64,000 nt of DNA from Echinicola vietnamensis DSM 17526 (GTDB lineage Bacteria > Bacteroidota > Bacteroidia > Cytophagales > Cyclobacteriaceae), in the NCBI RefSeq assembly GCF_000325705.1, contig NC_019904.1, forward strand, positions 2,110,001 to 2,174,000. Direction: 5' to 3'. The notes below the pieces were generated by a model that worked only from the letters and a program-made list of their open reading frames with translations, made no database searches and was not told where the DNA came from. The position numbers and the translations under genes were made by a program. Below, piece after piece: positions 17,385-63,212 of the stretch (positions within the stretch are counted from its first letter, which is position 1; every line of letters starts with the position of its first letter).

Positions 17385-17407
17385 TTAATTTGTAATCAGT
17401 GTTAGGT

Positions 17408-17425
17408 AGCCCTGATAGCAGGGCT
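17408..17425. terminator. Possible weak bidirectional terminator hairpin
   Basis: AGCCCTG pairs with CAGGGCT around a four-base loop, between two convergent genes (GH95 ends 17384, cytochrome ends 17471). No good T-tract follows on either strand, so the assignment is weak. Confidence 0.35.
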
Positions 17426-17470
17426 TAAAACAATAGTGGCATAAGGACAGGCTGTAGAGGAGGTCTCTAG

Positions 17471-20212: not shown

Positions 20213-21268
20213 ATGATTACATTCGCTCCAGGGCCATCTAAGGTCTATGACCAGCTGGCACAATACCTTCAGGATGCTTTTGACCAAGGCATCATGAGCG
20301 CCAATCACAGAAGCGCGACCTTTATGAATCTCTATCAGGAAACGGAAACGCTGATCAAGGAAAAGCTTCATGTTCCTGAGGATTACAAATTGCTGTTTAC
20401 CTCCAGTGCCACCGAAAACTGGGAGATCATCGCCCAGTCCATCGTGGAAAGTGCAAGTTTTCATATTTATTCAGGGTCTTTTGGGAAGAAATGGCTGAAT
20501 TTTGCGCAGCACTTAAATGCCGATACCCAGTCTCTTAAGCTGGATACGGAAACGGAATTGGACGTGGCAGGATTGGAGATCGATGAAAAATTTGACCTTA
20601 TTGCCATTACCCAGAACGAGACTTCCAATGCCACAGAGGTGAGCAATGAACTGATTCGCCAAGTGGGGAAAAAATTTCCCAACAAAATGATTGCAGTGGA
20701 TACGACTTCTTCCATGGCCGGTATTGAGCTGGACTTTGCTGCTGCGGATATTTGGTATGCTTCTGTACAAAAGTGCTTTGGACTCCCTGCAGGGCTTGGG
20801 CTGCTCCTGCTATCTCCTAAGGCCATTGAAAAATGCCAACGGAAAGGAGAGCAAGGCCGGTACAATAGCTTGGGCTTTATGCTTGAAAATGCCGCCAATT
20901 ACCAAACCCACTATACCCCCAATGTGCTAGGCATTTACTTGCTAAAGCGTAGCCTGGAGGACCGACCTGAGATACAGGAAACCGATAAAATGCTGCGTGA
21001 TCGTATGCGGCAACTGGAAAATACGATTGCCCAGTCGGATAAGCTGATGATGCTGGTGCAAAACCCCAATACCCGAAGCAAGACGGTCATGGGGATTTCC
21101 GGTACGGAAGAATTTATCAAGCAAGTCAAGAAGACGGCAGAGGAAAAAGGAATGCAAATGGGCAGCGGGTACGGCCCTTTAAAGCCGACCAGCTTCCGTA
21201 TCGCTAACTTTCCCGCCATTACAGATGGGGAGTTTGAAAAATTATTGACCTTCTTAAAAGAGTATTAA
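20213..21268 (+). CDS. Class V aminotransferase, phosphoserine aminotransferase-like
   Basis: A 351-residue PLP enzyme of the SerC/alanine-glyoxylate aminotransferase group. FAPGPSKV opens the protein, SANHRSATF carries the substrate-binding His/Arg, LLFTSSATENWE is the PLP-phosphate region, VDTTSSMAGIELD includes the PLP-ring Asp, and the Schiff-base Lys is in ASVQKCFGLPAGLG near 187. The C-terminal block GYGPLKPTSFRIANFPAI matches the substrate-carboxylate Arg region of SerC. True SerC has QKNIGPAG at the Lys, so the substrate may differ. It probably transaminates 3-phosphohydroxypyruvate or glyoxylate; cytoplasmic. Downstream of aroQ. Confidence 0.82.
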   Translation: MITFAPGPSKVYDQLAQYLQDAFDQGIMSANHRSATFMNLYQETETLIKEKLHVPEDYKLLFTSSATENWEIIAQSIVESASFHIYSGSFGKKWLNFAQHLNADTQSLKLDTETELDVAGLEIDEKFDLIAITQNETSNATEVSNELIRQVGKKFPNKMIAVDTTSSMAGIELDFAAADIWYASVQKCFGLPAGLGLLLLSPKAIEKCQRKGEQGRYNSLGFMLENAANYQTHYTPNVLGIYLLKRSLEDRPEIQETDKMLRDRMRQLENTIAQSDKLMMLVQNPNTRSKTVMGISGTEEFIKQVKKTAEEKGMQMGSGYGPLKPTSFRIANFPAITDGEFEKLLTFLKEY

Positions 21269-46707: not shown

Positions 46708-47466
46708 TTACAATTCCTTGATCATAATATTCTTAAACCAGACGTTGTTACCGTGGTCTTGAAGGGCGATTTTACCTTCTTGGTATTGACCAAATCCTTC
46801 AGTGTTTTTGAATTTACTGTTGGCGATAAGTTCATTCCAGCTATCGTTCCAAAGGGTGGTCTCCACGGTGGTGACACCGTTGAGCTTGAAGGTTAGTTTG
46901 CCTTGGTTAACGATGATCTCTGAAGTGTTCCACTCGCCGACAGGATTTTCAGCTTCCTCAGTAGCCTTGATCAGGTCGTAAAGGTCACCTGTGCGGTGTT
47001 TTTCGATTTTGCCATCCGGATGGCCGTCATTGTCCAGCAGTTGGTATTCGGGGCCAGTATTCCAGGAATGTTTATATTTATCCAGTTCTTGTACCAAAAA
47101 TATGATGCCGCTGTTTCCATTTTCGGAAATCTTCCAGTCCAGCTTAAGGTGGAAGTTGCCATAGACCTTGTCAGTAACAATATCGCCACCACCGTTTACT
47201 TGCCAGTTTTCTTTATTGGAAGCGTCCAGGTAGAGGACACCGTCTTCTACTTTCCAGGCAGGACCTACGGTTTCTTTGTTGTAGCTGGTCCACCCGTCTA
47301 GGTTTTGGCCGTTAAAGAGTGGAGTCCATTCTTCTTGTGAGGCTGTTTCGGTTTTCACTGCAACCTCCTCTTGAACGGATTCTTTTTCAGTGTCGCCTTT
47401 TTCGGCTGAGCCGCAGGCTGAAGCCAAAAGTCCAAGGACGGACAGGGATAATATGGATTTTTTCAT
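46708..47466 (-). CDS. DUF1080 (3-keto-disaccharide hydrolase family) lipoprotein
   Basis: A 252-residue lipoprotein (MKKSILSLSVLGLLASAC, Cys18) with a DUF1080 concanavalin-like beta-sandwich. WTPLFNGQNLDGWTSYNKETVGPAWKVEDGVLYLD is the family's N-terminal block, DIVTDKVYGNFHLKLDWKISENGNSGIIFLVQE and GPEYQLLDNDGHPDGK follow, and GQYQEGKIALQDHGNNVWFKNIMIKEL closes it. Members cleave 3-keto-glycosides, formed when a dehydrogenase oxidises a sugar at C3. The acidic stretch after the Cys (SAEKGDTEKESVQEE) may mark export to the outer membrane. It ends the minus-strand operon with a cytochrome c, a TIM barrel and a Gfo/Idh oxidoreductase, which supports a 3-keto-sugar pathway. Confidence 0.9.
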   Translation of the reverse strand: MKKSILSLSVLGLLASACGSAEKGDTEKESVQEEVAVKTETASQEEWTPLFNGQNLDGWTSYNKETVGPAWKVEDGVLYLDASNKENWQVNGGGDIVTDKVYGNFHLKLDWKISENGNSGIIFLVQELDKYKHSWNTGPEYQLLDNDGHPDGKIEKHRTGDLYDLIKATEEAENPVGEWNTSEIIVNQGKLTFKLNGVTTVETTLWNDSWNELIANSKFKNTEGFGQYQEGKIALQDHGNNVWFKNIMIKEL

Positions 47467-47482
47467 AATGTAAAATCGATTA

Positions 47483-47508
47483 AAAGAGGGTTTTTTAATA
47501 CCCTCTTT
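47483..47508 (-). terminator. Intra-operon hairpin between cytochrome and DUF1080 genes
   Basis: AAAGAGGGT and ACCCTCTTT form a perfect 9-bp stem with an A/T loop, in the 53-base gap between the two genes. On the minus strand it is followed by 'taatcg', without a T-run, so it may be a partial terminator or an mRNA-stabilising hairpin that sets relative expression. Confidence 0.5.
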
Positions 47509-47519
47509 AAGGTTTAGGG

Positions 47520-47945
47520 TTATTTCTTAAGCATTAGGATGTATTTCACCATTTTTTTGGCATCGTCTTCTGAGAGGCCTGGGTGAGCAGGCATGGGGAC
47601 CTGTCCCCAAACTCCGTTGTTTCCATCTACCACTCTTTTGGCTAACGTCTCGATGTTTTCATCAGTACTTTCGTATTTCTCTGCTACATCTTTGTAAGCA
47701 GGGCCTACGATTTTTCTTTCTACCATATGGCAGCTGGGGCAATCTGATTCTTTTACCAGGGCCAATCCTTCTACGTAATCAGGATTGTCCTTGTACATTT
47801 CGTCGAAACTCATTTCTTTCTTTGGTGCAGCAGATTCTGCAGCACTGGTGGTTTCTTCCGATTTGGTGTCTGACCCTCCGCCGCAGGCGTAGGCCATACC
47901 GGCAAGTGCAATGGCACCTGCGCTAGCTAATTTACTCAAGTTCAT
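47520..47945 (-). CDS. Lipoprotein c-type cytochrome
   Basis: A 141-residue monohaem cytochrome c. The signal peptide ends at a lipobox (ALAGMAYAC, Cys21). A Ser/Thr/Glu-rich linker follows, then the haem domain with the CPSCH site and distal Met in QVPMPAHPGLSEDDAKKMVKYILML. It resembles the small class I cytochromes that receive electrons from a membrane dehydrogenase. In this operon it probably accepts electrons from the GMC oxidoreductase of the divergent operon. Length and single haem are typical. Confidence 0.9.
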   Translation of the reverse strand: MNLSKLASAGAIALAGMAYACGGGSDTKSEETTSAAESAAPKKEMSFDEMYKDNPDYVEGLALVKESDCPSCHMVERKIVGPAYKDVAEKYESTDENIETLAKRVVDGNNGVWGQVPMPAHPGLSEDDAKKMVKYILMLKK

Positions 47946-47972
47946 TGGTTCTATAGGTTTGTTTGTATTTAG

Positions 47973-49025
47973 TTAAATTCCTAACACTTTTTTGTTGAGC
48001 GCATCATCGGTACCTGCGGAAGCAAAATCATCAAAGGTCTTTTCGGTTACCCTGATGATCTTTTCACTGATAAACTTGGCTCCTTCGATGGCTCCTGCTT
48101 CGGGATGCTTGATGGCACATTCCCATTCCAGGACAGCCCAGCCGTCAAAGCCATATTGGGACAATTTACTGAAAATAGCGTTAAAGTCCACTTGGCCATC
48201 TCCTAAGGAACGGAACCTCCCGGCCCTGTCAATCCAACCTTGGTAGCCACCATAGACACCTTGTTTTCCCGTTGGGTTGAACTCGGCATCTTTGACATGG
48301 AACATCTTGATCCTGTCTTTGTAGAAATCGATGAACTGAACATAGTCCAAGCACTGCAATACGAAGTGGCTTGGGTCATAAAGGATGTTGGCCCGAGGAT
48401 GCTGGTTTACTTTTTCGAGGAACATCTCAAACGTCACGCCGTCGTGCAGGTCTTCCCCTGGGTGCAGTTCATAGCATAAATCTACACCATTTTTGTCAAA
48501 TTCATCCAGAATGGGCAGCCACCTTTTGGCCAATTCCTCAAATCCAGCCTCAACCAGTCCTGCTGGACGCTGCGGCCAAGGGTAAACGGTATGCCACATC
48601 AAGGCGCCACTGAAGGTGCCGTGTTTGGTCAAGCCCAGGTTTTTGGACGCTTTGGCAGCATACATCAGTTGCTGGGTCGCCCATTTGGTCTTTCCTTCCA
48701 GGTCTCCTTTTAGCTCTTCCGGTGCAAATGCATCAAAAAGCTCATTGTAGGCAGGATTGACGGCTACCAACTGCCCTTGTAAATGGGTGCTCAATTCAGA
48801 GATTTCCAAGCCAGCGTCGGCTACGGTTTGTTTGATCTCATTTGCGTATTCAGGTTCTTCAGCAGCTTTTTTAAGGTCCATGAACCTGCCGTCCCAAGAA
48901 GGTATCTGTACGGCCTTGTAGCCGATGCTTGCTGCCCATTCACAGATGCTTTTAAGGCTGTTAAAGGGTGCCTGGTCATCTGCAAATTGCGCCAAAAATA
49001 GCGCGGGGCCTTTGATGGTCTTCAT
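47973..49025 (-). CDS. Sugar phosphate isomerase/epimerase (TIM barrel)
   Basis: A 350-residue AP-endonuclease-2-like TIM barrel of the xylose-isomerase/epimerase superfamily. No signal peptide is present, so it is cytoplasmic. Metal-ligand candidates are visible: E in DLCYELHPGEDLHDG, H in YDPSHFVLQ, H in MFHVKDAEF and E in WAVLEWECAIKHP. In other Bacteroidetes clusters these enzymes isomerise or epimerise keto sugars. In-operon gaps are 27 bases to the cytochrome and 187 bases to the Gfo/Idh gene. Confidence 0.85.
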   Translation of the reverse strand: MKTIKGPALFLAQFADDQAPFNSLKSICEWAASIGYKAVQIPSWDGRFMDLKKAAEEPEYANEIKQTVADAGLEISELSTHLQGQLVAVNPAYNELFDAFAPEELKGDLEGKTKWATQQLMYAAKASKNLGLTKHGTFSGALMWHTVYPWPQRPAGLVEAGFEELAKRWLPILDEFDKNGVDLCYELHPGEDLHDGVTFEMFLEKVNQHPRANILYDPSHFVLQCLDYVQFIDFYKDRIKMFHVKDAEFNPTGKQGVYGGYQGWIDRAGRFRSLGDGQVDFNAIFSKLSQYGFDGWAVLEWECAIKHPEAGAIEGAKFISEKIIRVTEKTFDDFASAGTDDALNKKVLGI

Positions 49026-49212
49026 ACAAAAGGGTCTTTTAAGTTTATTAAATTAATCGTTTTAGCAAATGAATTTGGAATGCAAAATACATTCTTTCAT
49101 GGTATTCTTTAAATATTTTGTCAGCTTTTTGCTCCAAAGTTCCTTGAAAGCGTGTCTTTTGGGGCTAAACGGTGCTCCTGCGCACGTTTACTCACGGAAA
49201 ATAGCGCCAGAC

Positions 49213-50382
49213 CTAAATTTCAAACTTGGTCCACTTTTGCTCGGATTGGCCACTTTTGACGACTTGCTCTATAAAAGCCATGCCTCTTACGCCGTCTTCT
49301 GTTCCTGGAAAATCCAACCATTCTTTTTCTGGTGTTTGGTTGTTGAGCTTGGCCAATAAGGTCCTTGCAAAGTTGTGGTAGTGATTGGCAAACGCTTCCA
49401 GGTAACCTTCCGGGTGGCCAGCCGGCGTGCGGGTATTGGCTAGGGCATAGCTGGAAAGGTAGGGAACGTTGGCTCCAGCGCGGTAGATTTGGTCCGGTTG
49501 TTCAGGATGGCGGACGATCAGAGAGTTGGCATCTTCCTGCTGCCATTCCAGTCCTGCTTTGTCTCCATAGACCCTGATTTTTAGGTTGTTTTCTGCTCCC
49601 GTGGCGACTTGGCTGGCCATGAGGACTCCAGAAGCCCCATTGTCAAACTTCAATAAAACGATGCCATCGTCATCCAAGGTCCGTCCCGGCACGACGGTGT
49701 TCAGGTCGGCGCACAGTTTGTCCAGTTTCAATCCACTGACGTACTCGGCCAAGTTCATCGCATGGGTGCCAATGTCTCCCATACAGCCGGCTACTCCACT
49801 TTTTTTAGGGTCTGTCCGCCAGGCCGCTTGTTTGTTCCCTTCATCAGAAAAATCTTTCCAAAGCCAGCCTTGAGGGTATTCGACGTACACTTTCCTGATT
49901 TTGCCCAATGTGCCATTGGCAATAAGCTGTTTGGCTTCTTTTACCATTGGATAGCCCGTGTAGGTATGGGTAAGACAAAAAAGCATGCCGGTTTCCTGAA
50001 TGACTTTGTCCAGCTGCTTGGCTTCGTCCAGGGTGAGGGTCATGGGTTTGTCCAAAACCACGTGAAAGCCATTTTGCAGGGCCTTGATGGTCGGATCGAA
50101 GTGGGCATGGTTTGGCGTGACAATGCTCACAAAGTCGATGCGCTCTCCTTCCGGGAGTTGTTTTTCTTTTTCGAACATCTCGTCATAGGACTGGTATACC
50201 CGTTTGGGATCCAGAAAGAGATCTTTCCCCGCTTGTGCTGATTTTTCTGGTCGGCTGCTGAATGCACCCGCTACCAAGGCGATCTGCCCGTCAATATTGG
50301 CAGCAATCCGGTGAACGGCTCCGATAAAAGCGCCCGGTCCGCCACCGATCATGCCCATTCGGAGTTTACGATGGTTCGTCAT
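49213..50382 (-). CDS. Gfo/Idh/MocA family oxidoreductase
   Basis: A 389-residue NAD(P)-dependent sugar oxidoreductase. The Rossmann motif MIGGGPGAFIGAVHR is at residues 11-25, HVVLDKPMTLTLDEAKQL carries the EKP-like motif (here DKP), and the C-terminal domain has GCMGDIGTHAMNLAEYVSG with the active-site D..H pair. No signal peptide, so cytoplasmic. In 3-keto-sugar routes these enzymes reduce a keto sugar back to the free sugar or oxidise C3 of a substrate. First gene of the minus-strand operon; divergent from the permease operon with 284 bases between. The frame start at 50382 is suitable. Confidence 0.9.
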   Translation of the reverse strand: MTNHRKLRMGMIGGGPGAFIGAVHRIAANIDGQIALVAGAFSSRPEKSAQAGKDLFLDPKRVYQSYDEMFEKEKQLPEGERIDFVSIVTPNHAHFDPTIKALQNGFHVVLDKPMTLTLDEAKQLDKVIQETGMLFCLTHTYTGYPMVKEAKQLIANGTLGKIRKVYVEYPQGWLWKDFSDEGNKQAAWRTDPKKSGVAGCMGDIGTHAMNLAEYVSGLKLDKLCADLNTVVPGRTLDDDGIVLLKFDNGASGVLMASQVATGAENNLKIRVYGDKAGLEWQQEDANSLIVRHPEQPDQIYRAGANVPYLSSYALANTRTPAGHPEGYLEAFANHYHNFARTLLAKLNNQTPEKEWLDFPGTEDGVRGMAFIEQVVKSGQSEQKWTKFEI

Positions 50383-50666
50383 TATATTTGGTTTTTATAA
50401 AACTTAGTGATTTCCTACTGTAATGGATTTCCTGCTTTTGCCATGTGGAAAAGGCCAGGAGTAAAGCTTGAATATTTGATAAAATGCGATATAGTCTTGT
50501 GAGTGGCAATGAACAAATAATAGCTACTGTTATACTTTCATGATTGTATTCAACGAAATTAAAATTAAGCTAAAAACACTAAAATTTAAATTATTATTTA
50601 AGTAGTTTGGCTTTTTCTTTTTAAGTTGGGAATTAAAATTAACACAAAAAAACCTATTAAAAACCT

Positions 50667-51899
50667 ATGAGTTTCAATACGAAGTTTAAACTGTCCTTTA
50701 TGATGTTCCTCGAATTTTTCATTTGGGGAGGTTGGTTTGTTACCTTGGGGTTGTTCCTTGGAAACAACTTAGGGACGAATGGAGCACAGGATGCAGCTGT
50801 GTTTTCGACACAATCACTGGGAGCCATTATCGCTCCTTTTATCATTGGGTTGATAGCCGACAAGTACTTTAATGCAGAACGGATTTTGGGAATCCTTCAT
50901 CTGATTGGCGCGGTATTGATGTACCTTATGTACACCGCAACTGATTTCGAATCGTTTTACCCTTATGTGTTTGCCTACATGGTGGCGTATATGCCCACGT
51001 TGGCTTTGGTGAATTCGGTTTCCTTTAATCAGATGAGCAATCCAGAAAAGGAATTTGGTGTCATTAGGGTGTGGGGAACGATTGGTTGGATTGTGGCCGG
51101 ATTGGTGATCAGTTTGGTGTTTGCTTGGGATTCCACGGAAAATGCCGCAGCTGGAATGTTGAAATATACCTTTTTGATGACCTGCATTGCCTCCTTGGTA
51201 TTGGGTGTTTACAGCTTTATGCTGCCAAAGACGCCTCCAAAAATTGCCAAAGGCGAGAAAAAGTCCATTTCAGAGATTCTGGGGCTTGATGCTTTTACAC
51301 TTCTGAAAGACCGAAATTACTTGGTTTTCTTTTTGTCTTCGGTATTGATCTGTATCCCCCTTGCCTTTTACTATCAAAATGCCAGTAAATTTTTCGGTGA
51401 GATCGGTATGACGAATCTTACCAGTAAAATGGCCTTGGGGCAAGGCAGTGAGGTGCTCTTCATGCTGCTGCTTCCGATCTTCTTTGGTAAATTCGGTGTG
51501 AAGAAAACGTTGTTGGTAGGCATGTTGGCCTGGGTGGTCCGCTATGCGTTGTTTGCCTTTGGTAATGTCGGGGAGCTTTCTTTTATGCTTTTGACAGGGA
51601 TTGCCCTTCATGGGATTTGCTATGATTTCTTTTTTGTTTCCGGGCAGATTTATACAGACTCCAAAGCAGGCGAAAAGTTCAAGAGTGCTGCACAGGGAAT
51701 GATTACCCTCGCAACCTATGGCGTGGGCATGTTGATCGGCTTCTGGGTAGCAGGATGGGCATATGACACCTATGAAATGAGTGATAAAGTCCACGACTGG
51801 AAGACGATCTGGTTGATTCCGTCAGGAATTGCCGTATTGGTAGCCCTGATCTTTGCCGTGGCGTTTAAACAGAAAAAAACTACGCCTGTAGAGGCTTAA
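50667..51899 (+). CDS. Nucleoside permease-like MFS transporter (NupG family)
   Basis: A 410-residue inner-membrane protein with about 12 hydrophobic helices and the NupG/XapB-type N terminus (FMMFLEFFIWGGWFVTLGLFLGNNL). NGAQDAAVFSTQSLGAIIAPFIIGLIADKYF and EFGVIRVWGTIGWIVAGLVI are family-typical. Family members import nucleosides with H+; in Bacteroidetes sugar clusters members probably take up sugars or their products. It opens the plus-strand operon with two TIM barrels and the GMC dehydrogenase, with a 12-base gap to the next gene. Confidence 0.87.
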   Translation: MSFNTKFKLSFMMFLEFFIWGGWFVTLGLFLGNNLGTNGAQDAAVFSTQSLGAIIAPFIIGLIADKYFNAERILGILHLIGAVLMYLMYTATDFESFYPYVFAYMVAYMPTLALVNSVSFNQMSNPEKEFGVIRVWGTIGWIVAGLVISLVFAWDSTENAAAGMLKYTFLMTCIASLVLGVYSFMLPKTPPKIAKGEKKSISEILGLDAFTLLKDRNYLVFFLSSVLICIPLAFYYQNASKFFGEIGMTNLTSKMALGQGSEVLFMLLLPIFFGKFGVKKTLLVGMLAWVVRYALFAFGNVGELSFMLLTGIALHGICYDFFFVSGQIYTDSKAGEKFKSAAQGMITLATYGVGMLIGFWVAGWAYDTYEMSDKVHDWKTIWLIPSGIAVLVALIFAVAFKQKKTTPVEA

Positions 51900-51911
51900 T
51901 ATTTTGTCAGA

Positions 51912-52775
51912 ATGAAGCCTCGTAGATCAGCAATAAAGAAAATGATGGTGGGGTCGGCAGTACTTAGCGGCTTGCCCTACTTGAATCTCAAAGCAAAAAA
52001 TAAAGAAATGTTGAAAGGAAATATAAACCATTCGGTGTGCCGGTGGACCTATGGTCACCTGTCGCTCGATGAGTTATGCGTACTGATCAAAGATATTGGG
52101 TTTAATGCCATCGACTTGCTGGGACCTGATGACTGGCCCACCGCACAGAAGTATGGAGTGTACAGCTCCATGTGCAATGGTGCTGAAATTAGCCTTGAGG
52201 AAGGTTTTAGCCATTCGGAATACCACGATACCCTCATCAAAAACTATACGGAAATGATCCCCCTTGTGGCCAAAAACGGTTACAAAAACCTGATTTGCTT
52301 TAGTGGGAACAGAAATGGTATGGATGATGAAACAGGCCTGCAAAATAGTGTAAAGGGATTGCAGAAATTATTGCCGCTGGCAGAAAAACATGGTGTCACC
52401 CTGACGATGGAATTGCTGAACAGCAAAGTAGACCATCCCGATTATATGTGTGACAAAAGCGTGTGGGGCGTAGAGCTGTGCAAGCGGCTGGATAGTGAGC
52501 ACTTTAATTTGCTCTATGATATTTACCATATGCAGATCGATGAAGGGGATGTGATCAGGACCATTGGTGAAAACCACCAATACTATGGACATTATCATAC
52601 AGCGGGGAATCCAGGGAGGAATGAAATTGATGATACCCAAGAGCTAAACTACCCAGCGATCATTAAAGCCATTGCGAAAACAGGCTTTAAAGGCTATATT
52701 GCTCAGGAGTTTATCCCTAAGGCTGATGACAAGGCGGCATCGCTCCGAGAAGCCATCGCCCTATGTGACATTTAA
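51912..52775 (+). CDS. Hydroxypyruvate isomerase-like TIM barrel, Tat-type signal
   Basis: A 287-residue TIM barrel of the hydroxypyruvate isomerase/sugar epimerase family. The N terminus MKPRRSAIKKMMVGSAVLSGL has a twin-arginine motif and hydrophobic segment, so it is probably exported folded. The barrel carries metal-ligand candidates E in TMELLNSKVDHPDY, D in LLYDIYHMQIDEGD, H in YYGHYHTAGNPGRNEID, and E in IAQEFIP. In-operon, 12 bases after the permease and 34 before the GMC gene. It may isomerise a 3-keto sugar in the periplasm. Confidence 0.85.
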   Translation: MKPRRSAIKKMMVGSAVLSGLPYLNLKAKNKEMLKGNINHSVCRWTYGHLSLDELCVLIKDIGFNAIDLLGPDDWPTAQKYGVYSSMCNGAEISLEEGFSHSEYHDTLIKNYTEMIPLVAKNGYKNLICFSGNRNGMDDETGLQNSVKGLQKLLPLAEKHGVTLTMELLNSKVDHPDYMCDKSVWGVELCKRLDSEHFNLLYDIYHMQIDEGDVIRTIGENHQYYGHYHTAGNPGRNEIDDTQELNYPAIIKAIAKTGFKGYIAQEFIPKADDKAASLREAIALCDI

Positions 52776-52809
52776 ACCAGAATAACCTAATAAAACCTAT
52801 AGATGAATT

Positions 52810-54489
52810 ATGGCAAATCAAGAGTATGATGCAATTGTTGTTGGCTCAGGTATAAGCGGTGGTTGGGCTGCTAAAGAGCTGACAGAGAAAGGGCTCAAGG
52901 TTTTGCTACTCGAAAGGGGGCAAAATGTAGAGCACGTAAAAGATTATAAGAATGCGACCTTGCCGCCTTGGGAAATTCCCCACAGAGGAAGGCGTACAAC
53001 GGAAATGGTGGAAAACCATCCTAACCTAAAACGTGACTATGTGCTGAACGAATTGGTGTTGGACTGGTGGGCTCATGAAGATACTTCTCCTTATGTAGAG
53101 GAAAAACCCTTTACCTGGTTTAGGGGCTACCAAGTGGGAGGAAGGTCCCTGCTCTGGGGCAGGCAAAGTTATCGCTGGTCCGATCTGGATTTTGAGGCAA
53201 ACCTAAAAGAGGGTATTGCGGTGGACTGGCCAATCAGGTATAAGGATATCGCACCCTGGTACGATTATGTGGAGAAGTTTGCGGGGATTGCTGGGAACCG
53301 TGACGGGTTGGATGTGCTTCCCGATGGGGAGTTTATGCCGCCATTTGCGATGAACTGCGTGGAGAAGGATGTAAAGGAGCGAATTGCCAAGCATTTTGAA
53401 GGAAAACGTCACCTGATCAATTCTCGGGTGGCCAATATTACAGAGCCACTTCCTGGGAGGCCAGGCTGTCAAGCGAGGAATAAGTGTTGGTTAGGCTGTC
53501 CTTTTGGAGGGTATTTTAGTACACAGGCTTCTACCTTGCCGGCTGCGATGGCTACCGGAAACCTAACCCTTCGACCATATTCCATTGTACACCGTGTATT
53601 GTACGATAAAGACACCAAGAAAGCGACGGGAGTAGAAATCGTGGATGCCGAAACCATGGAAACCATCGAGTATAAATCCAAGATTGTATTCCTTTGTGCT
53701 TCGGCCCTTAATTCTGCTCACGTATTGATGCGTTCGGCAACCGATATCTGGCCGGAAGGATTGGGCAGTAGCTCTGGTGAACTTGGCCACAATGTAATGG
53801 ATCACCATTTCCGGTTAGGCGCAAGTGGAACAGTAGAAGGGTATGATGATAAATACTATTTCGGCAGAAGGCCTGGAGGTATTTACATTCCAAGGTACCG
53901 GAATGTAGGAGATGATAAGCGTGACTATGTACGTGGTTTTGGCTACCAAGGAGGTGCCAGTAGAAGCGGATGGGGAAGAGATGTGGCAGAGATGAACATT
54001 GGCGGTCCGATGAAAGAAGCCTTAACTGAGCCAGGACCATGGAGCATGGGCATGATGGCGTTTGGTGAAATCCTGCCTTACCACGAAAACACCATCAAGA
54101 TCAGTAAAGATGTGAAGGATAAGTGGGGCATGTATGCACTGGTCATGAATGCTGAGATCAAGGACAATGAGCAGAAGATGCGTAAGGACATGATGAATGA
54201 TGCCGCTGAAATGCTGGAAGCAGCAGGGGTCAAGAATATCCATACGTATGATTCTGGATATACCTTCGGACAGGGGATTCACGAAATGGGAACTGCTCGA
54301 ATGGGCAGGGATCCCAAAACCTCCGTCCTGAACGAAAACAACCAAGTATGGGATGCCAAAAATGTGTTCGTGACTGATGGGGCAGCAATGACTTCTGCCG
54401 CTGCGGTAAATCCGTCACTGACCTATATGGCACTGACGGCCCGAGCAGCAGATTTTGCTGTGAAGGAACTCAAAAAAGGAAACCTTTAA
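52810..54489 (+). CDS. GMC family FAD-dependent sugar oxidoreductase
   Basis: A 559-residue flavoprotein of the glucose-methanol-choline family, the catalytic subunit type of FAD-dependent glucoside/sugar 3-dehydrogenases. The FAD motif VVGSGISGGWAAKELTE (10-26) and ERGQNVEHV lie at the N terminus, GGRSLLWGRQSYRWSDLDFE near ~115, and the C-terminal HEMGTARMGRDPKTS and AAVNPSLTYMALTARAADF supply the active-site His/Asn region. It has no signal peptide of its own; it is probably co-exported with the Tat-signalled small subunit encoded next. A cytochrome lipoprotein (47520) is the probable electron acceptor. Confidence 0.92.
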   Translation: MANQEYDAIVVGSGISGGWAAKELTEKGLKVLLLERGQNVEHVKDYKNATLPPWEIPHRGRRTTEMVENHPNLKRDYVLNELVLDWWAHEDTSPYVEEKPFTWFRGYQVGGRSLLWGRQSYRWSDLDFEANLKEGIAVDWPIRYKDIAPWYDYVEKFAGIAGNRDGLDVLPDGEFMPPFAMNCVEKDVKERIAKHFEGKRHLINSRVANITEPLPGRPGCQARNKCWLGCPFGGYFSTQASTLPAAMATGNLTLRPYSIVHRVLYDKDTKKATGVEIVDAETMETIEYKSKIVFLCASALNSAHVLMRSATDIWPEGLGSSSGELGHNVMDHHFRLGASGTVEGYDDKYYFGRRPGGIYIPRYRNVGDDKRDYVRGFGYQGGASRSGWGRDVAEMNIGGPMKEALTEPGPWSMGMMAFGEILPYHENTIKISKDVKDKWGMYALVMNAEIKDNEQKMRKDMMNDAAEMLEAAGVKNIHTYDSGYTFGQGIHEMGTARMGRDPKTSVLNENNQVWDAKNVFVTDGAAMTSAAAVNPSLTYMALTARAADFAVKELKKGNL

Positions 54490-54507
54490 CCCAAAACGAC
54501 ACTAATT

Positions 54508-55059
54508 ATGGCAATGAACAGAAGAGATGCACTGAAGAGCTTCGCCCTGATGATGGGAGGGACCATGGTAGGTGCCAATGCCTTGCTAACCGGTTGTACG
54601 CCGGATAAGCAGATAGAAGGGCTCGATTTCAGCCCAGAAGAAATTGACTTTCTGGATGAAATAGGCGATACCATTATTCCTACTACGGATACGCCTGGAG
54701 CCAAAGCCGTAGGGATTGGATCCTTTATGGTAATGATGGTAAAGGATACGTATTGGGAGGAAGAACAAAAGCAGTTTATCGATGGACTCAATAGCCTCAG
54801 AAAGGGATTTAAGGAGGAAGTCGGAAAGGACTTTATGGATGCTTCCCAAGAGGAAAGAACGGCTTACCTGAATAAGTTGAATGCTGCGGCACGTGAAGAA
54901 AATGGACCTAAGTACTTTAACATGTTGAAGGATTTGACCGTTTTGGGATACTTTACTTCCGAAATTGGTGCCACGCAAGCGTTGAATTATGTGGAGGTTC
55001 CTGGAAAATGGGAGCCTTGTATAGATTACAAAAAAGGGGATAAAGCCCACGCGATCTGA
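54508..55059 (+). CDS. Gluconate 2-dehydrogenase subunit 3 family protein, Tat lipoprotein
   Basis: A 183-residue small subunit of membrane FAD-dependent sugar dehydrogenases. The signal NRRDALKSFALMMGGTMVGANALLTGC combines a twin-arginine motif with a lipobox Cys (~30). FSPEEIDFLDEIGDTIIPTTDTPGAKAVGIGSFM is the family block, then KYFNMLKDLTVLGYFTSEIGATQALNY. In characterised complexes this subunit carries the Tat signal that also exports the signal-less GMC subunit. It starts 18 bases after the GMC gene. Confidence 0.9.
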   Translation: MAMNRRDALKSFALMMGGTMVGANALLTGCTPDKQIEGLDFSPEEIDFLDEIGDTIIPTTDTPGAKAVGIGSFMVMMVKDTYWEEEQKQFIDGLNSLRKGFKEEVGKDFMDASQEERTAYLNKLNAAAREENGPKYFNMLKDLTVLGYFTSEIGATQALNYVEVPGKWEPCIDYKKGDKAHAI

Positions 55060-55066
55060 TCCCATA

Positions 55067-55099
55067 AACGGAACAGTGCTCAGGCGCTGTTCCGTTTTT
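55067..55099 (+). terminator. Intra-operon terminator-like hairpin
   Basis: AACGGAACAG (55067-55076) pairs with CTGTTCCGTT (55087-55096), then T-run to 55099. It is 8 bases after the subunit 3 stop and 28 bases before the next ATG, so the last gene may get less transcript or its own promoter. Confidence 0.75.
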
Positions 55100-55126
55100 C
55101 TACATTCTTATTATCAAAACCCTACT

Positions 55127-56035
55127 ATGAACAAAAGAAGAAAGTTTTTAAAGCTGGGAGCGGCTTTTACTGCAGGTTCATTTTTGCCTTTGCAGTTTTG
55201 TTCTTCTCCCAAAAGTGAAAGTGAAACGGCCGTTGTAGAAGAAGCGGTAAAAGAATCAGTAAAGGAAAAGCTGGAAAGTTTTGGCATACAGTTGTACTCG
55301 GTAAAAGGAGATATGGCTGAAAATGCGCAAGAAGCCATCAAGAAAATCGCCGGATATGGCTACAATCAGATCGAAGGGTTTGATGGTGGTAAGGGCATCT
55401 TTTGGGGGATGAAAAATACGGATTTCAAGGCCTTTACAGAGGACTTGGGCCTGGACTTCGTTGCGTCCCATGCCAACGTTTTTGAAAATACGGAGAAATT
55501 GGCTGCGGAGGCTGGTGAGATTGGTATGAAGTACCTTATCGCTCCTTACGTAGGCCCTCAGGAGTCCATGGAGGATTGGAAGAAAATGGCCGATAGGTTT
55601 AATAAGGTAGGAGAAATATGCAAGTCAAATGGACTTCGCTTTGCCTACCATAACCATGGTTATACGTTTGAAGAACAGGAAGGACAAATGCCGCAAGATT
55701 TCTTGCTGGAGAATACTGACCCGGAATTGGTGGACTTCGAACTTGATATTTATTGGGCCGTAACCGCAGGAGCTGATCCTGAGAAATATTTCGAAAAGTA
55801 TAAAAATAGGTTTAGGCTCTGTCACGTAAAAGATCGTGAAAAGGGAGCGCCAGCCGGTGAACATAATGCTTCGACAGTATTGGGTACAGGGACTATTGAT
55901 TACAGCAAAGTCCTAAGGACAGCAAAGGATAATGGCATGGACTACTTTATTGTGGAGCAAGAGAAGTTCTCTGGCGTCACTCCAATGGAAGCGGCTGAAA
56001 AAAATGCAGCCTATCTAAAAGCCTTAGAAATATAG
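55127..56035 (+). CDS. Sugar phosphate isomerase/epimerase, Tat-exported lipoprotein
   Basis: A 302-residue TIM barrel with signal MNKRRKFLKLGAAFTAGSFLPLQFC: twin-arginine motif and lipobox, so an exported lipoprotein. The ATG at 55127 is chosen because it starts the signal peptide; the frame runs from 55076. Metal-ligand candidates: H in YHNHGYTFEE, E in DFELDIYW, H in LCHVKDREKG and E in YFIVEQEKF. This is a typical 3-keto-sugar epimerase/isomerase companion of GMC and DUF1080 proteins. Last gene of the operon. Confidence 0.87.
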   Translation: MNKRRKFLKLGAAFTAGSFLPLQFCSSPKSESETAVVEEAVKESVKEKLESFGIQLYSVKGDMAENAQEAIKKIAGYGYNQIEGFDGGKGIFWGMKNTDFKAFTEDLGLDFVASHANVFENTEKLAAEAGEIGMKYLIAPYVGPQESMEDWKKMADRFNKVGEICKSNGLRFAYHNHGYTFEEQEGQMPQDFLLENTDPELVDFELDIYWAVTAGADPEKYFEKYKNRFRLCHVKDREKGAPAGEHNASTVLGTGTIDYSKVLRTAKDNGMDYFIVEQEKFSGVTPMEAAEKNAAYLKALEI

Positions 56036-57374: not shown

Positions 57375-57447
57375 GATTCCGTAGCTCAGCTGGTAGAGCA
57401 ATACACTTTTAATGTATGGGTCCTGGGTTCGAGCCCCAGCGGGATCA
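57375..57447 (+). tRNA. tRNA-Lys (TTT)
   Basis: A complete 73-nt cloverleaf: acceptor GATTCCG/CGGGATC, D arm GCTC...GAGC, anticodon stem ATACA/TGTAT with loop CTTTTAA giving anticodon TTT, T arm CTGGG/CCCAG with TTCGAGC, discriminator A. CCA is not encoded. Identical to the fourth tRNA of this operon. Confidence 0.97.
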
Positions 57448-57508
57448 CTTCTTCTTTTCTGGAAAGAAAAGAGCACTGTTCCGAACGAGTGACAGGAAGA
57501 AATATTTA

Positions 57509-57583
57509 CGGGGTGTAGCGTAGCCCGGTCATCGCGCCTGCTTTGGGAGCAGGAGGTCGCAGGTTCGAATCCTGCCACCCCGA
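57509..57583 (+). tRNA. tRNA-Pro (TGG)
   Basis: A 75-nt cloverleaf: acceptor CGGGGTG/CACCCCG, anticodon stem CCTGC/GCAGG with loop TTTGGGA and anticodon TGG, T arm GCAGG/CCTGC with loop TTCGAAT, discriminator A. Confidence 0.96.
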
Positions 57584-57610
57584 CTTTCATACTTTGTCAT
57601 AAAAGTATCA

Positions 57611-57684
57611 GGTCCTGTAGCTCAACTGGATAGAGCAACTGCCTTCTAAGCAGTAGGTTAAAGGTTCGAGTCCTTTCAGGATCA
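57611..57684 (+). tRNA. tRNA-Arg (TCT)
   Basis: A 74-nt cloverleaf: acceptor GGTCCTG/CAGGATC, D arm GCTC...GAGC, anticodon stem ACTGC/GCAGT with loop CTTCTAA and anticodon TCT, T arm AAAGG/CCTTT with TTCGAGT, discriminator A. A hairpin GCGGAAA/TTTCCGC follows at 57691-57708, probably an RNA-processing feature. Confidence 0.96.
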
Positions 57685-57776
57685 CAGCGAGCGGAAAGTA
57701 ATTTCCGCTTATTTATTGAAAAGCTTACGTTGTACCTAAAAGAAGGTACGGTAGTTTGCAAAAAAAAGAAAATCAT

Positions 57777-57849
57777 GATTCCGTAGCTCAGCTGGTAGAG
57801 CAATACACTTTTAATGTATGGGTCCTGGGTTCGAGCCCCAGCGGGATCA
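57777..57849 (+). tRNA. tRNA-Lys (TTT), second copy
   Basis: Identical over 73 nt to 57375-57447, and both are preceded by 'aatcat'. It is the last tRNA of the operon, followed directly by a terminator. Confidence 0.97.
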
Positions 57850-57852
57850 CAT

Positions 57853-59380: not shown

Positions 59381-60253
59381 TTACTTTTCAATCATCTTAT
59401 AAACCCTTACGTAGTCAATCTTGAACGTGGCAGGGAAAGCTTCTTCATCCACTCCTTCAGCACCTCCCCAGTCGCCTCCAATGGCAAGATTTAGCAGGAT
59501 GTGAAAGGGTTTGTCAAAGGGCCAAGAAGGATATCCTTTGCCGTCGTTGGTAAAGGTGAAAAGAAGCTTGTTATCAATGTAACCCCTGATGGCATAGGGC
59601 GTCCAATCTACCCGGTAGGTGTGGTATGCCTCGCTGACATGCTCTACCATCCGGTTTTTGCCCACTTGCGTGCCGTTTTTATGGTTAAAGGCTTCTGTAT
59701 GGACGGTAATGTGGACGATGCCTTGATCATAGCCGACATGCTCCATGATGTCGATTTCTCCAGAGGCAGGCCATCCGCCATATTCCCAATCGGTAGGAAG
59801 CATCCAGATGGCAGGCCATGTGCCTTTGCCCTTGGGCAGGCGAGCTTTTGCCTCAATACGTCCATAAAGGAAATCACCTTTGCCTTTACTGACCAATCTG
59901 GCCGATGTAAAGGCACTGTTTTCCTTGGTTTCTTTTTTGGCCGTAATGGTCAATACACCGTTGCCTACCCGCGCATTGTCCAGTGTCTCGGTATAATATT
60001 GGAGTTCGTTGTTGCCCCAGCCATGGCCTCCAGTGTCGTATCCCCATTTATCAGGATTCGGATATCCTTCATAGTCAAATTCGTCTTGCCATATAGGCGT
60101 GTCTTCAAATTCCCAGCCCAAGTCCTGTGGTGGTTTGGGTGCTGGGATATTTGGGGTAGGGGCTTCAGATTGGCCAGAACAGGCCATTGGGAAAAGCCCA
60201 ATTACTACAAAGGCCAAAGGGGGGTAAAATAGGTTTGATAGTGTTTTTTTCAT
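59381..60253 (-). CDS. GH16 beta-glucanase (laminarinase-like) lipoprotein
   Basis: A 290-residue lipoprotein (signal up to FPMAC, Cys near 25) of glycoside hydrolase family 16. The catalytic site is GEIDIMEHVGYD (two Glu and an Asp). PIWQDEFDYEGYPNPDKWGYDTGGHGWGNNELQYYT and KGKGTWPAIWMLPTDWEYGGWPASG surround it, matching beta-1,3-glucanases. It cuts internal beta-1,3- or mixed-linkage bonds, retaining mechanism. It lies 13 bases downstream of GH5 in a SusC/D locus, which points to beta-glucan (laminarin) use. Confidence 0.92.
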   Translation of the reverse strand: MKKTLSNLFYPPLAFVVIGLFPMACSGQSEAPTPNIPAPKPPQDLGWEFEDTPIWQDEFDYEGYPNPDKWGYDTGGHGWGNNELQYYTETLDNARVGNGVLTITAKKETKENSAFTSARLVSKGKGDFLYGRIEAKARLPKGKGTWPAIWMLPTDWEYGGWPASGEIDIMEHVGYDQGIVHITVHTEAFNHKNGTQVGKNRMVEHVSEAYHTYRVDWTPYAIRGYIDNKLLFTFTNDGKGYPSWPFDKPFHILLNLAIGGDWGGAEGVDEEAFPATFKIDYVRVYKMIEK

Positions 60254-60266
60254 GAATTGATAGCAT

Positions 60267-61625
60267 TTATGGTTTAGGAGCGACCGCCTGAATCGTTTGG
60301 TTATTTGGAACGGTATTGCTGAAATGGATATTTTGTAAAACGGTCTCCATGGCGGATTTGCCTTCCGTAGGATATGGAGGAGGAATCCTTCTCAGTGCTG
60401 CATTTTCACGCTCGTCAAATCGCTTGTACGTCCAGTGGCACCAGCCTATATTGGCTTGTTCTAGTTTTTCAATGTTTTGCTTTAGCCATTCGTTGTCATT
60501 TTCTCCTGTCTCGCCCACCCATACGGGTACTTGATGCCGTTCCCTAAAAGCAATGAGGTTGACGATTCGGTTGATTTGGTTCGGGTTTGGATCAGGTACG
60601 GTGTCCTCTTCGACGGGAATCCAGTAGCGATGGGCGTTGTAGATAAGGTTTTCGGAATGCCTGAAGGTGGAAGGTTCCATTAGGTCGTAATTGTTTCCCC
60701 ATCCATTGCCCTCGACCATAATGATGTGCAGGTCTCCCAGGTCCCTGATGGCCGTGATCAGACGGTCAAATAGATCATGAATGGGTTGATTGGAGGGGAT
60801 ATTATTGGGTTCGTTAATCAGGTCATACCAAGCAATCCTGTCGTCGTGGATGTATTTCTTAGAGAGCATTTTCCAAAGGGTTATTGTGACTTCCTGATAG
60901 ATGAGCCGTTGTTTCTGGTCTTTTCGCTTCCATAGGTCGTTTTTGACCAGAATGTCGGCAATGTTTGCGTCCGTGCCTTGTCCTCCCGGGGCAGCATGAA
61001 GATCTAAAATGACGTACATTTCATTGGTTTCACACCAATCCAGGAGCTTGTCCAAAAGTCGGATGCCTTCAAGTTGGTCAGGTTGGGCAAACAGGGAGCC
61101 TTCGTCCAGCCATTTGGAAAGGCCGTTGACATAGTGTTTCAGTTGGGTAGTGTCCTGTATGGCCTTGTTTCTCCATGAGCGCTGTGCAGCAGTGAGAAAC
61201 AGTTCATAATGCATGGGGACTCTTACAGCGTTAAATCCAAGGGAGGCGATGTCATCAATATCCTTTTGGGTGATAAAATTGTCTCGCCATTCTTGATAAA
61301 ACGCTTCTACGTTTTCAGGAGAAACGCCCTGGTTGTACAGGTGGTTTTTCATTTGCCATTGTGTCCCTATTTCTTCTCCGTTAGGGTTGAGCATGTATCC
61401 TTCTTGTAGAAGCCAGCCTCCCAGGCCGACAGCTCTTAGCATTACCTTTTCTCCATGTTCGTTGATGATATGCGTTTGGTCGACGGAGAGCCGGGTTAGC
61501 CTATGGGAAGATGCTTTGGAGGAGGATGCTGTATGGTGCCGATTGTTCCCAGAATGGCAACACATGAACAATATAAGGCTACCAATACTCAAAAACAACC
61601 TTAACAGATTGGATCGTTTAATCAT
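60267..61625 (-). CDS. GH5 family glycoside hydrolase
   Basis: A 452-residue exported (beta/alpha)8 enzyme. A signal segment with Cys (LILFMCC) suggests a lipoprotein. LRAVGLGGWLLQEGYML and LGFNAVRVPMHYELF mark the N-terminal barrel, the acid/base Glu is in WYDLINEPNNIP and the nucleophile in PVWVGETGENDNEW, with HRYWIP in between. These residues fit GH5, possibly an exo-beta-1,3-glucanase or endoglucanase subgroup. Located between SusD and GH16, transcribed together. Confidence 0.92.
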   Translation of the reverse strand: MIKRSNLLRLFLSIGSLILFMCCHSGNNRHHTASSSKASSHRLTRLSVDQTHIINEHGEKVMLRAVGLGGWLLQEGYMLNPNGEEIGTQWQMKNHLYNQGVSPENVEAFYQEWRDNFITQKDIDDIASLGFNAVRVPMHYELFLTAAQRSWRNKAIQDTTQLKHYVNGLSKWLDEGSLFAQPDQLEGIRLLDKLLDWCETNEMYVILDLHAAPGGQGTDANIADILVKNDLWKRKDQKQRLIYQEVTITLWKMLSKKYIHDDRIAWYDLINEPNNIPSNQPIHDLFDRLITAIRDLGDLHIIMVEGNGWGNNYDLMEPSTFRHSENLIYNAHRYWIPVEEDTVPDPNPNQINRIVNLIAFRERHQVPVWVGETGENDNEWLKQNIEKLEQANIGWCHWTYKRFDERENAALRRIPPPYPTEGKSAMETVLQNIHFSNTVPNNQTIQAVAPKP

Positions 61626-61642
61626 TATAATGGGGTTAAAAT

Positions 61643-61676
61643 AGCCCTCACGCCAGGTTTTCTGGTCATGAGGGCT
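61643..61676 (-). terminator. Hairpin between SusD and GH5 genes
   Basis: AGCCCTCA pairs with TGAGGGCT (with inner CCAG/CTGG). On the minus strand the hairpin is followed by ATTTTAACCCC, a short T-run, 13 bases after the SusD stop. It may be a partial terminator that lowers expression of GH5 and GH16 relative to SusCD. Confidence 0.65.
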
Positions 61677-61688
61677 TTGGGCATAGGG

Positions 61689-63212
61689 TTATTTCGTGCC
61701 TCCGTATTCTTGGTTTTGTTCGATAAGGGTATTGTCCAGCTCCAACAGAGGAATGGGGAGTATTTCGTGCTTTCCTGATACAAATCCTTTTTCGGAGAGT
61801 TCATCTGCAGCTATTCCATTTCGGATAAGGTCAAACCATCTATGGCCTTCCCCTGCAAGTTCGATTCTTCTTTCGATAAGGATGTTTTCTAAGGTCGCCG
61901 GTATGGGGGAGAGCCCTACGCGCGCTCGGACAGCGTCCATGAGCTGTTGGGCGCGGCCGCTGTCACCACCTCCTCTAATGAGGGCTTCAGCTTCCAAAAG
62001 ATACGTGTCTGCCAATCGGATTTCGTACATGTTTTGACGGAAATTGAGTTCCATCACGCCACCTCCCGTAGAGCGGTCAGCTTCTCTTCCAGCGAACTTT
62101 TTCAAGAAATAACCGGTGTTCATGTAGCCTTTTTCATAGGTGACTGCACCGGCTTTTTCTAGGCTATCCAAATTGGCGACAGTGGCATGCGATCGGGGGT
62201 CACCTTGGATGGTGCTGAAAAACTCTTCGGTAAAGGGCAGGAAGCTCCAGCCGGAAACAAAGTCAGGAGCATCCGGGCTGATGGCATTGTATCCCCTAGG
62301 ACCGACCATGATGTTTAGCACGTTCCCTTCTGTACAGCCTACACATCCCCAATCGCCGTTTGACTGATTGGTGAAGTTGATTTCAAATATGGATTCGCTG
62401 TTGAACTTATTGTCGACAACCCACAAGTCGGCAAAATTGTCCAACAGCTTGTATCCATACTGACTGGTTTCTCCGGGGGTTCCATTGACCGCTGCAAATT
62501 CCTGCGCGGCAAGGTCAAACTTTTCCTGATGGAGGTATACTTTCCCAAGTAATGCCCTGGCCATGCCAATGGTAGCCCTTCCTGCTTCTGTGGCCAAATC
62601 CACTGTGGCGGGAAGGGTTTGGATGGCGGCATGAAGGTCGCTTTCTATTTGCTGGTAAACTGTGGTAGGATCGGTCTGCGGCACATCATACATCTCACTG
62701 GTAGGTACCGGAGAAGTCAGCAAGGGAATGTTTTCAAATAATCTTACCAGATCAAAATAGAAATAGGCCCTTAAGAATTGGGTTTCTGCTGTATACCTTG
62801 CCTTTAGGTTTTCATCCATTGGGACTTCGGGGAGTTTCTGCAGTAATACGTTAGCCCTGAATACGCCAGAAAATCCTTTGCTCCATAATTCTCCTTGGGG
62901 TCCCGTGGCAGGGTCGAGGGTGTAGTTTGACCATACCTGCAATGGGGTGATGTCGGTAGGGCCTCCACCGCCAGCATAATGGTCGTCGGAAGCAGCGTTT
63001 AGGGCATTTTGCTTGGTGACAAAACCATTGCCTGTCCATCCCACTACATCATAAATGGCCACCAGTCCATTGTAGGCTTCTTGTTGATTCTGATAGTAGT
63101 TCGCCTCTAGGTTGGTGCCTTTTGGCTGAATTTCGAGAAAGGAATCACTGCAGGCCCCCAGGGTAAGCAGGGCCATTGCTGATGCGATTATATTATTTTT
63201 ATATGATTTCAT
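61689..63212 (-). CDS. SusD/RagB family nutrient-binding lipoprotein
   Basis: A 507-residue outer-membrane surface lipoprotein (SAMALLTLGACSDSFLEIQP, lipobox Cys near 21). TPR-rich SusD fold: YYQNQQEAYNGLVAIYDVVGW, RYTAETQFLRAYFYFDLVRLFENIPLLTSPV (conserved), ATIGMARALLGKVYLHQEKFDLAAQEFAAV, and the C-terminal LIERRIELAGEGHRWFDLIRNG. It caps the SusC barrel and binds the glycan. 20 bases downstream of the SusC gene. Confidence 0.95.
   Translation of the reverse strand: MKSYKNNIIASAMALLTLGACSDSFLEIQPKGTNLEANYYQNQQEAYNGLVAIYDVVGWTGNGFVTKQNALNAASDDHYAGGGGPTDITPLQVWSNYTLDPATGPQGELWSKGFSGVFRANVLLQKLPEVPMDENLKARYTAETQFLRAYFYFDLVRLFENIPLLTSPVPTSEMYDVPQTDPTTVYQQIESDLHAAIQTLPATVDLATEAGRATIGMARALLGKVYLHQEKFDLAAQEFAAVNGTPGETSQYGYKLLDNFADLWVVDNKFNSESIFEINFTNQSNGDWGCVGCTEGNVLNIMVGPRGYNAISPDAPDFVSGWSFLPFTEEFFSTIQGDPRSHATVANLDSLEKAGAVTYEKGYMNTGYFLKKFAGREADRSTGGGVMELNFRQNMYEIRLADTYLLEAEALIRGGGDSGRAQQLMDAVRARVGLSPIPATLENILIERRIELAGEGHRWFDLIRNGIAADELSEKGFVSGKHEILPIPLLELDNTLIEQNQEYGGTK

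Follow-up and report, generated by a model that had tools for sequence, protein, structure and literature searches.

Described oxidative glycoside pathways and the Echinicola locus

Oxidative, non-hydrolytic breakdown of glycosides acts on bonds that are poorly handled by glycosidases. Its chemistry has been described for the GlycDH-AtOGE-AtHYD-Gfo operon of Agrobacterium tumefaciens (PMC10628242), where preliminary evidence credits one enzyme with hydrating 2-hydroxy-3-keto-glucal to 3-keto-glucose, which is then reduced by the Gfo enzyme, and for the levoglucosan pathway LgdA/B1/B2/C of Bacillus smithii (PMC7676230). Caulobacter crescentus uses lactose with the help of lacABC, a DUF1080 gene, two epimerases, a reductase and a transporter, and similar clusters are mentioned in Halomonas, Algoriphagus and Indibacter (PMC9007349). 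The oxidiser of Bacteroides (BT2156-BT2160) is a glycoside 3-dehydrogenase located in the periplasm, BT2158 (PMC11300592). All statements on these four articles refer to excerpts of them. Here we describe a 64,000-nucleotide stretch of the Echinicola vietnamensis DSM 17526 genome (NC_019904.1, positions 2,110,001 to 2,174,000; called the window below and numbered from its first letter) with two divergent operons of nine genes in total, which we read, at a probability of roughly 80%, as a system for non-hydrolytic glycoside utilisation split by the inner membrane.

The minus-strand operon (50382-46708) encodes, in this order, a Gfo/Idh/MocA oxidoreductase, a TIM barrel, a c-type cytochrome and a DUF1080 lipoprotein, with gaps of 187, 27 and 53 base pairs (bp). 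The plus-strand operon (50667-56035) encodes a permease, a TIM barrel of 287 amino acids (aa), a GMC oxidoreductase, its small subunit (subunit 3) and another TIM barrel of 302 aa. Here the gaps are 12, 34, 18 and then 16 or 67 bp, as the listed GTG start of the last gene lies at 55076 and the start supported by orthologues, with a twin-arginine translocation (Tat) signal, is the Met at 55127. All nine proteins passed the curated cut-off of their expected Pfam family in a profile search per protein, which upholds the gene content given by a first-pass annotation of the same sequence. The three TIM barrels matched PF01261 at 1e-37, 5e-22 and 3.1e-16.

In the proposed pathway the GMC protein, exported on the Tat signal of subunit 3, would oxidise C3 of a glycosyl residue outside, and electrons would pass from flavin adenine dinucleotide (FAD) through a [3Fe-4S] centre to the lipoprotein cytochrome c and on to respiration. 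The exported 302-aa TIM barrel would beta-eliminate beta-linked 3-keto-glycosides and the DUF1080 lipoprotein probably those of the other anomer, releasing an aglycone or sugar and a 2-hydroxy-3-keto-glycal, while the third exported TIM barrel would probably epimerise or isomerise the keto-sugar. The permease would bring in the keto-glycal, a cytosolic hydratase would convert it by addition of water into 3-keto-glucose, from which the Gfo/Idh enzyme would form glucose by reduction. The first-pass annotation had likewise proposed extracytoplasmic oxidation at C3, cleavage, import and reduction; this outline is supported by conserved clustering and by co-occurrence in genomes, but details of its steps had to be corrected.

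The four chemical steps are those of the A. tumefaciens operon, whose lyase has the same metal and catalytic residues as that of the window, judged by spacing (PMC10628242); in the window there are Tat signals on the lyase and on a further TIM barrel, and the locus also has the DUF1080 lipoprotein, the cytochrome c and an MFS-type permease. The B. smithii pathway also runs through oxidation, elimination, hydration and reduction, with a different oxidoreductase (PMC7676230). Shared with the C. crescentus cluster are a three-part dehydrogenase, DUF1080, a transporter, two epimerase-like proteins and a reductase, and GMC, small subunit, cytochrome and DUF1080 are encoded together as in the LacABC type; the excerpts of that study assume hydrolysis and leave the fate of the keto-sugar open, a gap which the predicted hydratase and lyase of the window would fill (PMC9007349). 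The lyase fold and the DUF1080 family are common to the window, to Bacteroides BT2156-BT2160 and to the 3-keto-glucopyranoside-1,2-lyases AL1/BT1 (8tcd, 8tct), whereas oxidation would fall to a GMC-cytochrome complex here and falls to BT2158 there (PMC11300592). The pathway is therefore not new, with its chemistry (PMC10628242; PMC7676230) and, in Caulobacter, its cluster type and mutant phenotypes (PMC9007349) already known. The locus links the A. tumefaciens enzymes to lac-type clusters of Bacteroidota in which the keto-sugar was left without an assigned fate (PMC9007349), predicts that one particular intermediate is transported and that one hydratase carries out the hydration, and in the window copy suggests on which side of the inner membrane the steps run. 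In a partial survey of the related literature we met no statement of the split between compartments, of two lyases in one locus, of the hydratase being present in one copy or of an exchangeable carrier.

Hydration, cleavage, oxidation and transport

The TIM barrel encoded at 47973-49025 (minus strand) matched the structure 8ro4, "2-hydroxy-3-keto-glucal hydratase", over its full length (1.4e-169; 235 of 350 residues, 67%, identical) and by this match is an orthologue of the A. tumefaciens enzyme AtHYD. Both proteins have E186, H188, D217, H220, H243 and E302, six of six active-site candidates that were picked by analogy to the fold. For comparison we used 80 hydratase-anchored loci from other genomes, the best 80 of at least 583 confirmed relatives, all of them Bacteroidota by their titles and leaning towards kin; the loci span up to 21 kilobases (kb), some being shortened by contig ends, and 57 have a length of at least 18 kb (long loci). 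Neighbours were counted by tblastn at E<=1e-10 over more than 35% of the query. In 71 of the 80 loci a Gfo gene precedes the hydratase gene in the same orientation at a distance of at most 300 bp. In the window this gene (49213-50382, minus strand) encodes a protein with PF01408 (4.2e-20) and PF22725/PF02894, and family and adjacency point to a probable cytosolic 3-ketoglucose reductase.

The DUF1080 lipoprotein (46708-47466, minus strand) belongs to PF06439 (6.3e-53) and resembles structures 8tda (1.8e-40) and 8rr2 (2.3e-40). Presumably it prefers the alpha anomer, as does the enzyme of B. theta. By sequence, residues and model the 302-aa TIM barrel (55127-56035, plus strand) is an OGE/8tcd-type lyase, with the metal and catalytic residues of AtOGE kept as judged by spacing, and would act as a 3-keto-beta-glucopyranoside-1,2-lyase. 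The first-pass annotation had DUF1080 hydrolyse the 3-keto-glycoside outside and all TIM barrels act as isomerases before 3-keto-glucose is imported. This agrees with the name of PF06439, 3-keto-disaccharide hydrolase, and with the term putative 3'-ketolactose hydrolase used by Price et al. for the Caulobacter DUF1080 protein (PMC9007349, in excerpt), but an AtHYD-type hydratase would then be needless and an OGE/8tcd-type lyase is encoded in the neighbouring operon, and we regard hydrolysis as improbable. We take DUF1080 to be a cleaving enzyme for 3-keto-glycosides, probably a lyase, and beta-elimination is the most likely reaction because the hydratase makes sense only together with eliminative cleavage. 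Among the three TIM barrels, one appears to be an AtHYD-type hydratase and one a 3-keto-beta-glucoside lyase, leaving only the third as isomerase- or epimerase-like.

This third protein, of 287 aa (51912-52775, plus strand), has the 3-keto-D-glucoside 4-epimerase YcjR among its best structural matches (score 24.6), with hydroxypyruvate-isomerase-like chains slightly higher (3ngf 26.9, 1k77 26.2). It is a candidate 3-keto-hexoside epimerase or isomerase and probably acts outside the inner membrane. A sub-case of the eliminative pathway would be a locus mainly for galactosides or lactose, in which this protein is a 3-keto-hexoside 4-epimerase that passes galacto-intermediates to a gluco-specific hydratase. 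The YcjR match and the importance of two epimerases of the Caulobacter cluster on lactose (PMC9007349, in excerpt) speak for this; the higher scores of the hydroxypyruvate-isomerase-like chains and a substrate role that is predicted only speak against it, and we consider it possible but doubtful.

The GMC protein (52810-54489, plus strand; PF00732 and PF05199) is of the LacA/glucoside-3-dehydrogenase type by family, with its regiospecificity predicted only. It aligns throughout with the fructose dehydrogenase large subunit (1e-38), which also has C220-x5-C226-x3-C230 and equivalents of H491 and N534; in an alignment of 53 sequences these five residues are invariant at the 97% level, and we take the three cysteines to hold a [3Fe-4S] centre. 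Subunit 3 (54508-55059, plus strand) is a Gluconate_2-dh3 protein (PF13618, 2.2e-38), and the cytochrome (47520-47945, minus strand; PF00034, 2.2e-8) has C69-x2-C72-H73 and Cys21, which are invariant at the same level in 70 aligned sequences. The lipoprotein cytochrome is likely the electron acceptor of the GMC complex.

Export features were scored in the orthologues from the anchor loci by simple motif rules, with a twin arginine (RR) counted within the first 30 residues. RR was present in 53/53 orthologues of the 287-aa TIM barrel and in 34/35 of the lyase. Subunit 3 showed RR, a lipobox-like motif and an N-terminal hydrophobic stretch in all 52 orthologues and is thus a Tat lipoprotein. Among 53 GMC proteins there was no RR and no lipobox, and a hydrophobic stretch in one; since the GMC protein is without a signal of its own, it is likely co-exported in a complex with subunit 3, its probable carrier outward. 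Hydrophobic stretches occurred in 60/63 DUF1080 proteins (lipobox LASAC in the window) and 66/69 cytochromes, with lipoprotein anchoring less constant than export (lipobox-like motifs in 30/63 and 43/69). The hydratase showed none of the three features in 80 orthologues, and the Gfo protein RR in 4/78 and a hydrophobic stretch in 4/78. Because of this distribution, elimination outside the inner membrane with hydration and reduction in the cytosol is the most likely arrangement. The earlier placing of all TIM barrel reactions before import does not hold for the hydratase, whose lack of export features moves hydration to after import, so that what is transported is probably the keto-sugar in its unsaturated form.

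Some species must then cross the membrane between elimination and hydration, which makes the permease gene (50667-51899, plus strand) a candidate. Its product belongs to the nucleoside-H+ symporter family (PF03825, 5.7e-115) and is a probable importer of the keto-sugar intermediate. Nucleoside permease NupG proper was rejected, with 370 bits against a TIGR00889 cut-off of 446.1. A permease was found in 44 of the 57 long loci, of the NupG type in 24 and of a dissimilar MFS_1 type in 23 (both in three of these). Its distance to a core gene is below 1 kb in 43 of these 44 loci, with L087 (in our numbering of loci) as the exception. The MFS_1 identity rests on three proteins run through Pfam, one of which had no significant BLAST similarity to the NupG-like protein. 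The MFS gene takes the place that NupG has in the window, between the genes for the 287-aa TIM barrel and Gfo, in L063, L064, L077 and L093. We offer tentatively, at somewhat less than even odds, a more specific version in which a reactive 2-hydroxy-3-keto-glycal enters through a class of carrier for which such transport is not known, two unrelated exported lyases serve opposite anomers, and a periplasmic keto-hexoside epimerase acts beside them, so that many glycosides would converge on one intermediate with a single hydratase and reductase.

Conservation of the cluster across genomes

Near the hydratase we found Gfo in 78/80 loci (57/57 long), the cytochrome in 71/80 (51/57), DUF1080 in 67/80 (48/57), GMC in 53/80 (40/57), subunit 3 in 53/80 (39/57), the 287-aa TIM barrel in 53/80 (36/57), the lyase in 44/80 (31/57) and the NupG-like permease in 28/80 (24/57). 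Flanking genes of the window that served as controls in the same search were rarely recovered (isocitrate dehydrogenase 6/80, DUF5128 protein 0/80, SH3 protein 22/80, GH16 8/80), which argues against chance clustering. At stricter identity all nine genes are present in 14 loci, including that of Indibacter alkaliphilus LW1 (L036), a species that PMC9007349 names, where the order is also the same. In a set of 59 related genomes that includes E. vietnamensis itself, 41 have a single copy of the hydratase at E<=1e-20 (in G018 a fragment only) and 43 have a GMC match at E<=1e-3. Counting the 36 genomes with a best GMC match of E<=1e-180 as the subfamily of the window, 35 genomes have both GMC and hydratase, one (G013) GMC only, six hydratase only and 17 neither, counts that ignore phylogeny and to this extent weigh less in favour of the pathway. 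The neighbourhood co-occurrence expected by the first-pass annotation is therefore borne out.

The divergent layout of GMC and Gfo-hydratase genes recurs in 46/80 loci spanning Cyclobacteriaceae and Chitinophagaceae, and sequence and layout suggest that the intervening 284 bp (50383-50666) might be a shared promoter region. This joint occurrence of both operons also bears on a different explanation, in which GMC, subunit 3 and cytochrome form a respiratory periplasmic sugar oxidase and the remaining genes an unrelated operon, e.g. for inositol or levoglucosan. Among solved structures the GMC protein is indeed closest to fructose and glucose dehydrogenases, and there were weak matches to IolE/IolG and levoglucosan dehydrogenase; these NCBIfam matches, however, are far under the cut-offs, and we hold this explanation to be very improbable. 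The myo-inositol pathway was rejected at 62.8 and 70.1 bits against 290 for IolE (TIGR04379) and 55.9 against 355 for IolG (TIGR04380), and the levoglucosan pathway at 119.7 bits of the Gfo protein against 650 for levoglucosan dehydrogenase (NF052479).

Related clusters occur in further genomes. A plasmid of Sphingomonas parapaucimobilis, outside Bacteroidota, encodes side by side relatives of Gfo (50%), hydratase (66%) and GMC (48% identity), together with those of DUF1080 (23%), subunit 3 (29%), lyase TIM (28%) and the 287-aa TIM (32% over 39% of the protein); its annotation also lists a cytochrome c and an MFS gene. All nine kinds are present on a plasmid of Hymenobacter (Bacteroidota). In Croceicoccus the hydratase is accompanied by Gfo, subunit 3 and GMC, with no DUF1080 within 21 kb. 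Counter-examples are an A. tumefaciens plasmid with hydratase, Gfo, ATP-binding cassette (ABC) transporters and a relative of the lyase TIM (26%), and plasmids of Azospirillum and Sulfitobacter; no GMC match was found in any of these three loci.

Several observations weigh against the proposed pathway. On raffinose-family sugars B. theta grew without a defect after deletion of BT2157 and BT2158 (PMC11501099), and by the excerpts of PMC9007349 no lactose phenotype was seen for ten DUF1080 genes of Pedobacter. GMC was not found in 17 of the 57 long loci, DUF1080 in nine and either permease type in 13. The hydrophobic stretch behind RR was scored in only 41/53 orthologues of the 287-aa TIM barrel and 23/35 of the lyase. 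The Gfo protein reached 42.5 bits against a cut-off of 750 for the BT_2158 glycoside 3-dehydrogenase, and among its structural matches no solved reductase with a 3-ketoglucose-reductase role was identified. In the Azospirillum and Sulfitobacter plasmids (L123, L124) hydratase and Gfo lie within xylA/xylB operons with sugar ABC transporters, and the hydratase may serve other sugars too.

Further modules, candidate substrates and neighbouring genes

The E. vietnamensis genome, a single contig of 5,608,040 bases, encodes one hydratase, four GMC relatives and ten DUF1080 domain matches, two of them in one open reading frame. The three further GMC relatives (L111, L112, L113; 41%, 32% and 28% identity) each lie beside their own subunit 3. 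Two DUF1080 genes (L114, L117) adjoin genes whose products carry an RR signal and match Gfo weakly by BLAST; these pairs resemble BT2157/BT2158, the latter of which we take to be of the Gfo/Idh type, and may form a 3-keto-glycoside module of a second kind. A Tat-type Gfo relative was also present in 23/80 anchor loci. Several oxidation and cleavage modules might thus feed the single hydratase-reductase pair of the window.

Beyond four tRNA genes (57375-57850) the window encodes a beta-glucan utilisation block with SusD-like, GH5 and GH16 genes (59381-63212). The same block adjoins the cluster in 5/10 other Echinicola stretches, which makes beta-glucan oligosaccharides a candidate substrate. 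The xylA/xylB context of the hydratase-Gfo pair in Azospirillum and Sulfitobacter suggests also a pentose-linked substrate, and tandem GMC paralogues (at least three in a row) adjoining the hydratase locus in L079 and L084 suggest substrate diversification.

Some loci differ in content. Rufibacter (L097:8832-12476) has a minimal set made up of Gfo, the hydratase and an MFS_1 permease; GMC, DUF1080 and the lyase TIM gave no match within this 21-kb locus. In Chitinophaga L080 and L110 Gfo, hydratase, cytochrome and DUF1080 genes without GMC are followed by ThuA-domain genes, in L110 including a ThuA/sugar dehydrogenase/PKD/cytochrome c fusion of 1138 aa. These genes may be a module for oxidation or cleavage by another route. 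In an Echinicola relative (L131, G010:C1:3906361-3908036) the GMC match is split over two frames, with residues 1-117 in one and the overlapping residues 101-559 in the other, and this gene may be interrupted or misassembled. Elsewhere in the window a class-V aminotransferase gene lies at 20213-21265, in agreement with Echvi_1811, which PMC7311316 lists as a candidate SerC of this strain. At 14982-18463 a GH95-family gene and a gene whose 330-aa product passes the cut-off of PF00034 (cytochrome c) run towards each other.

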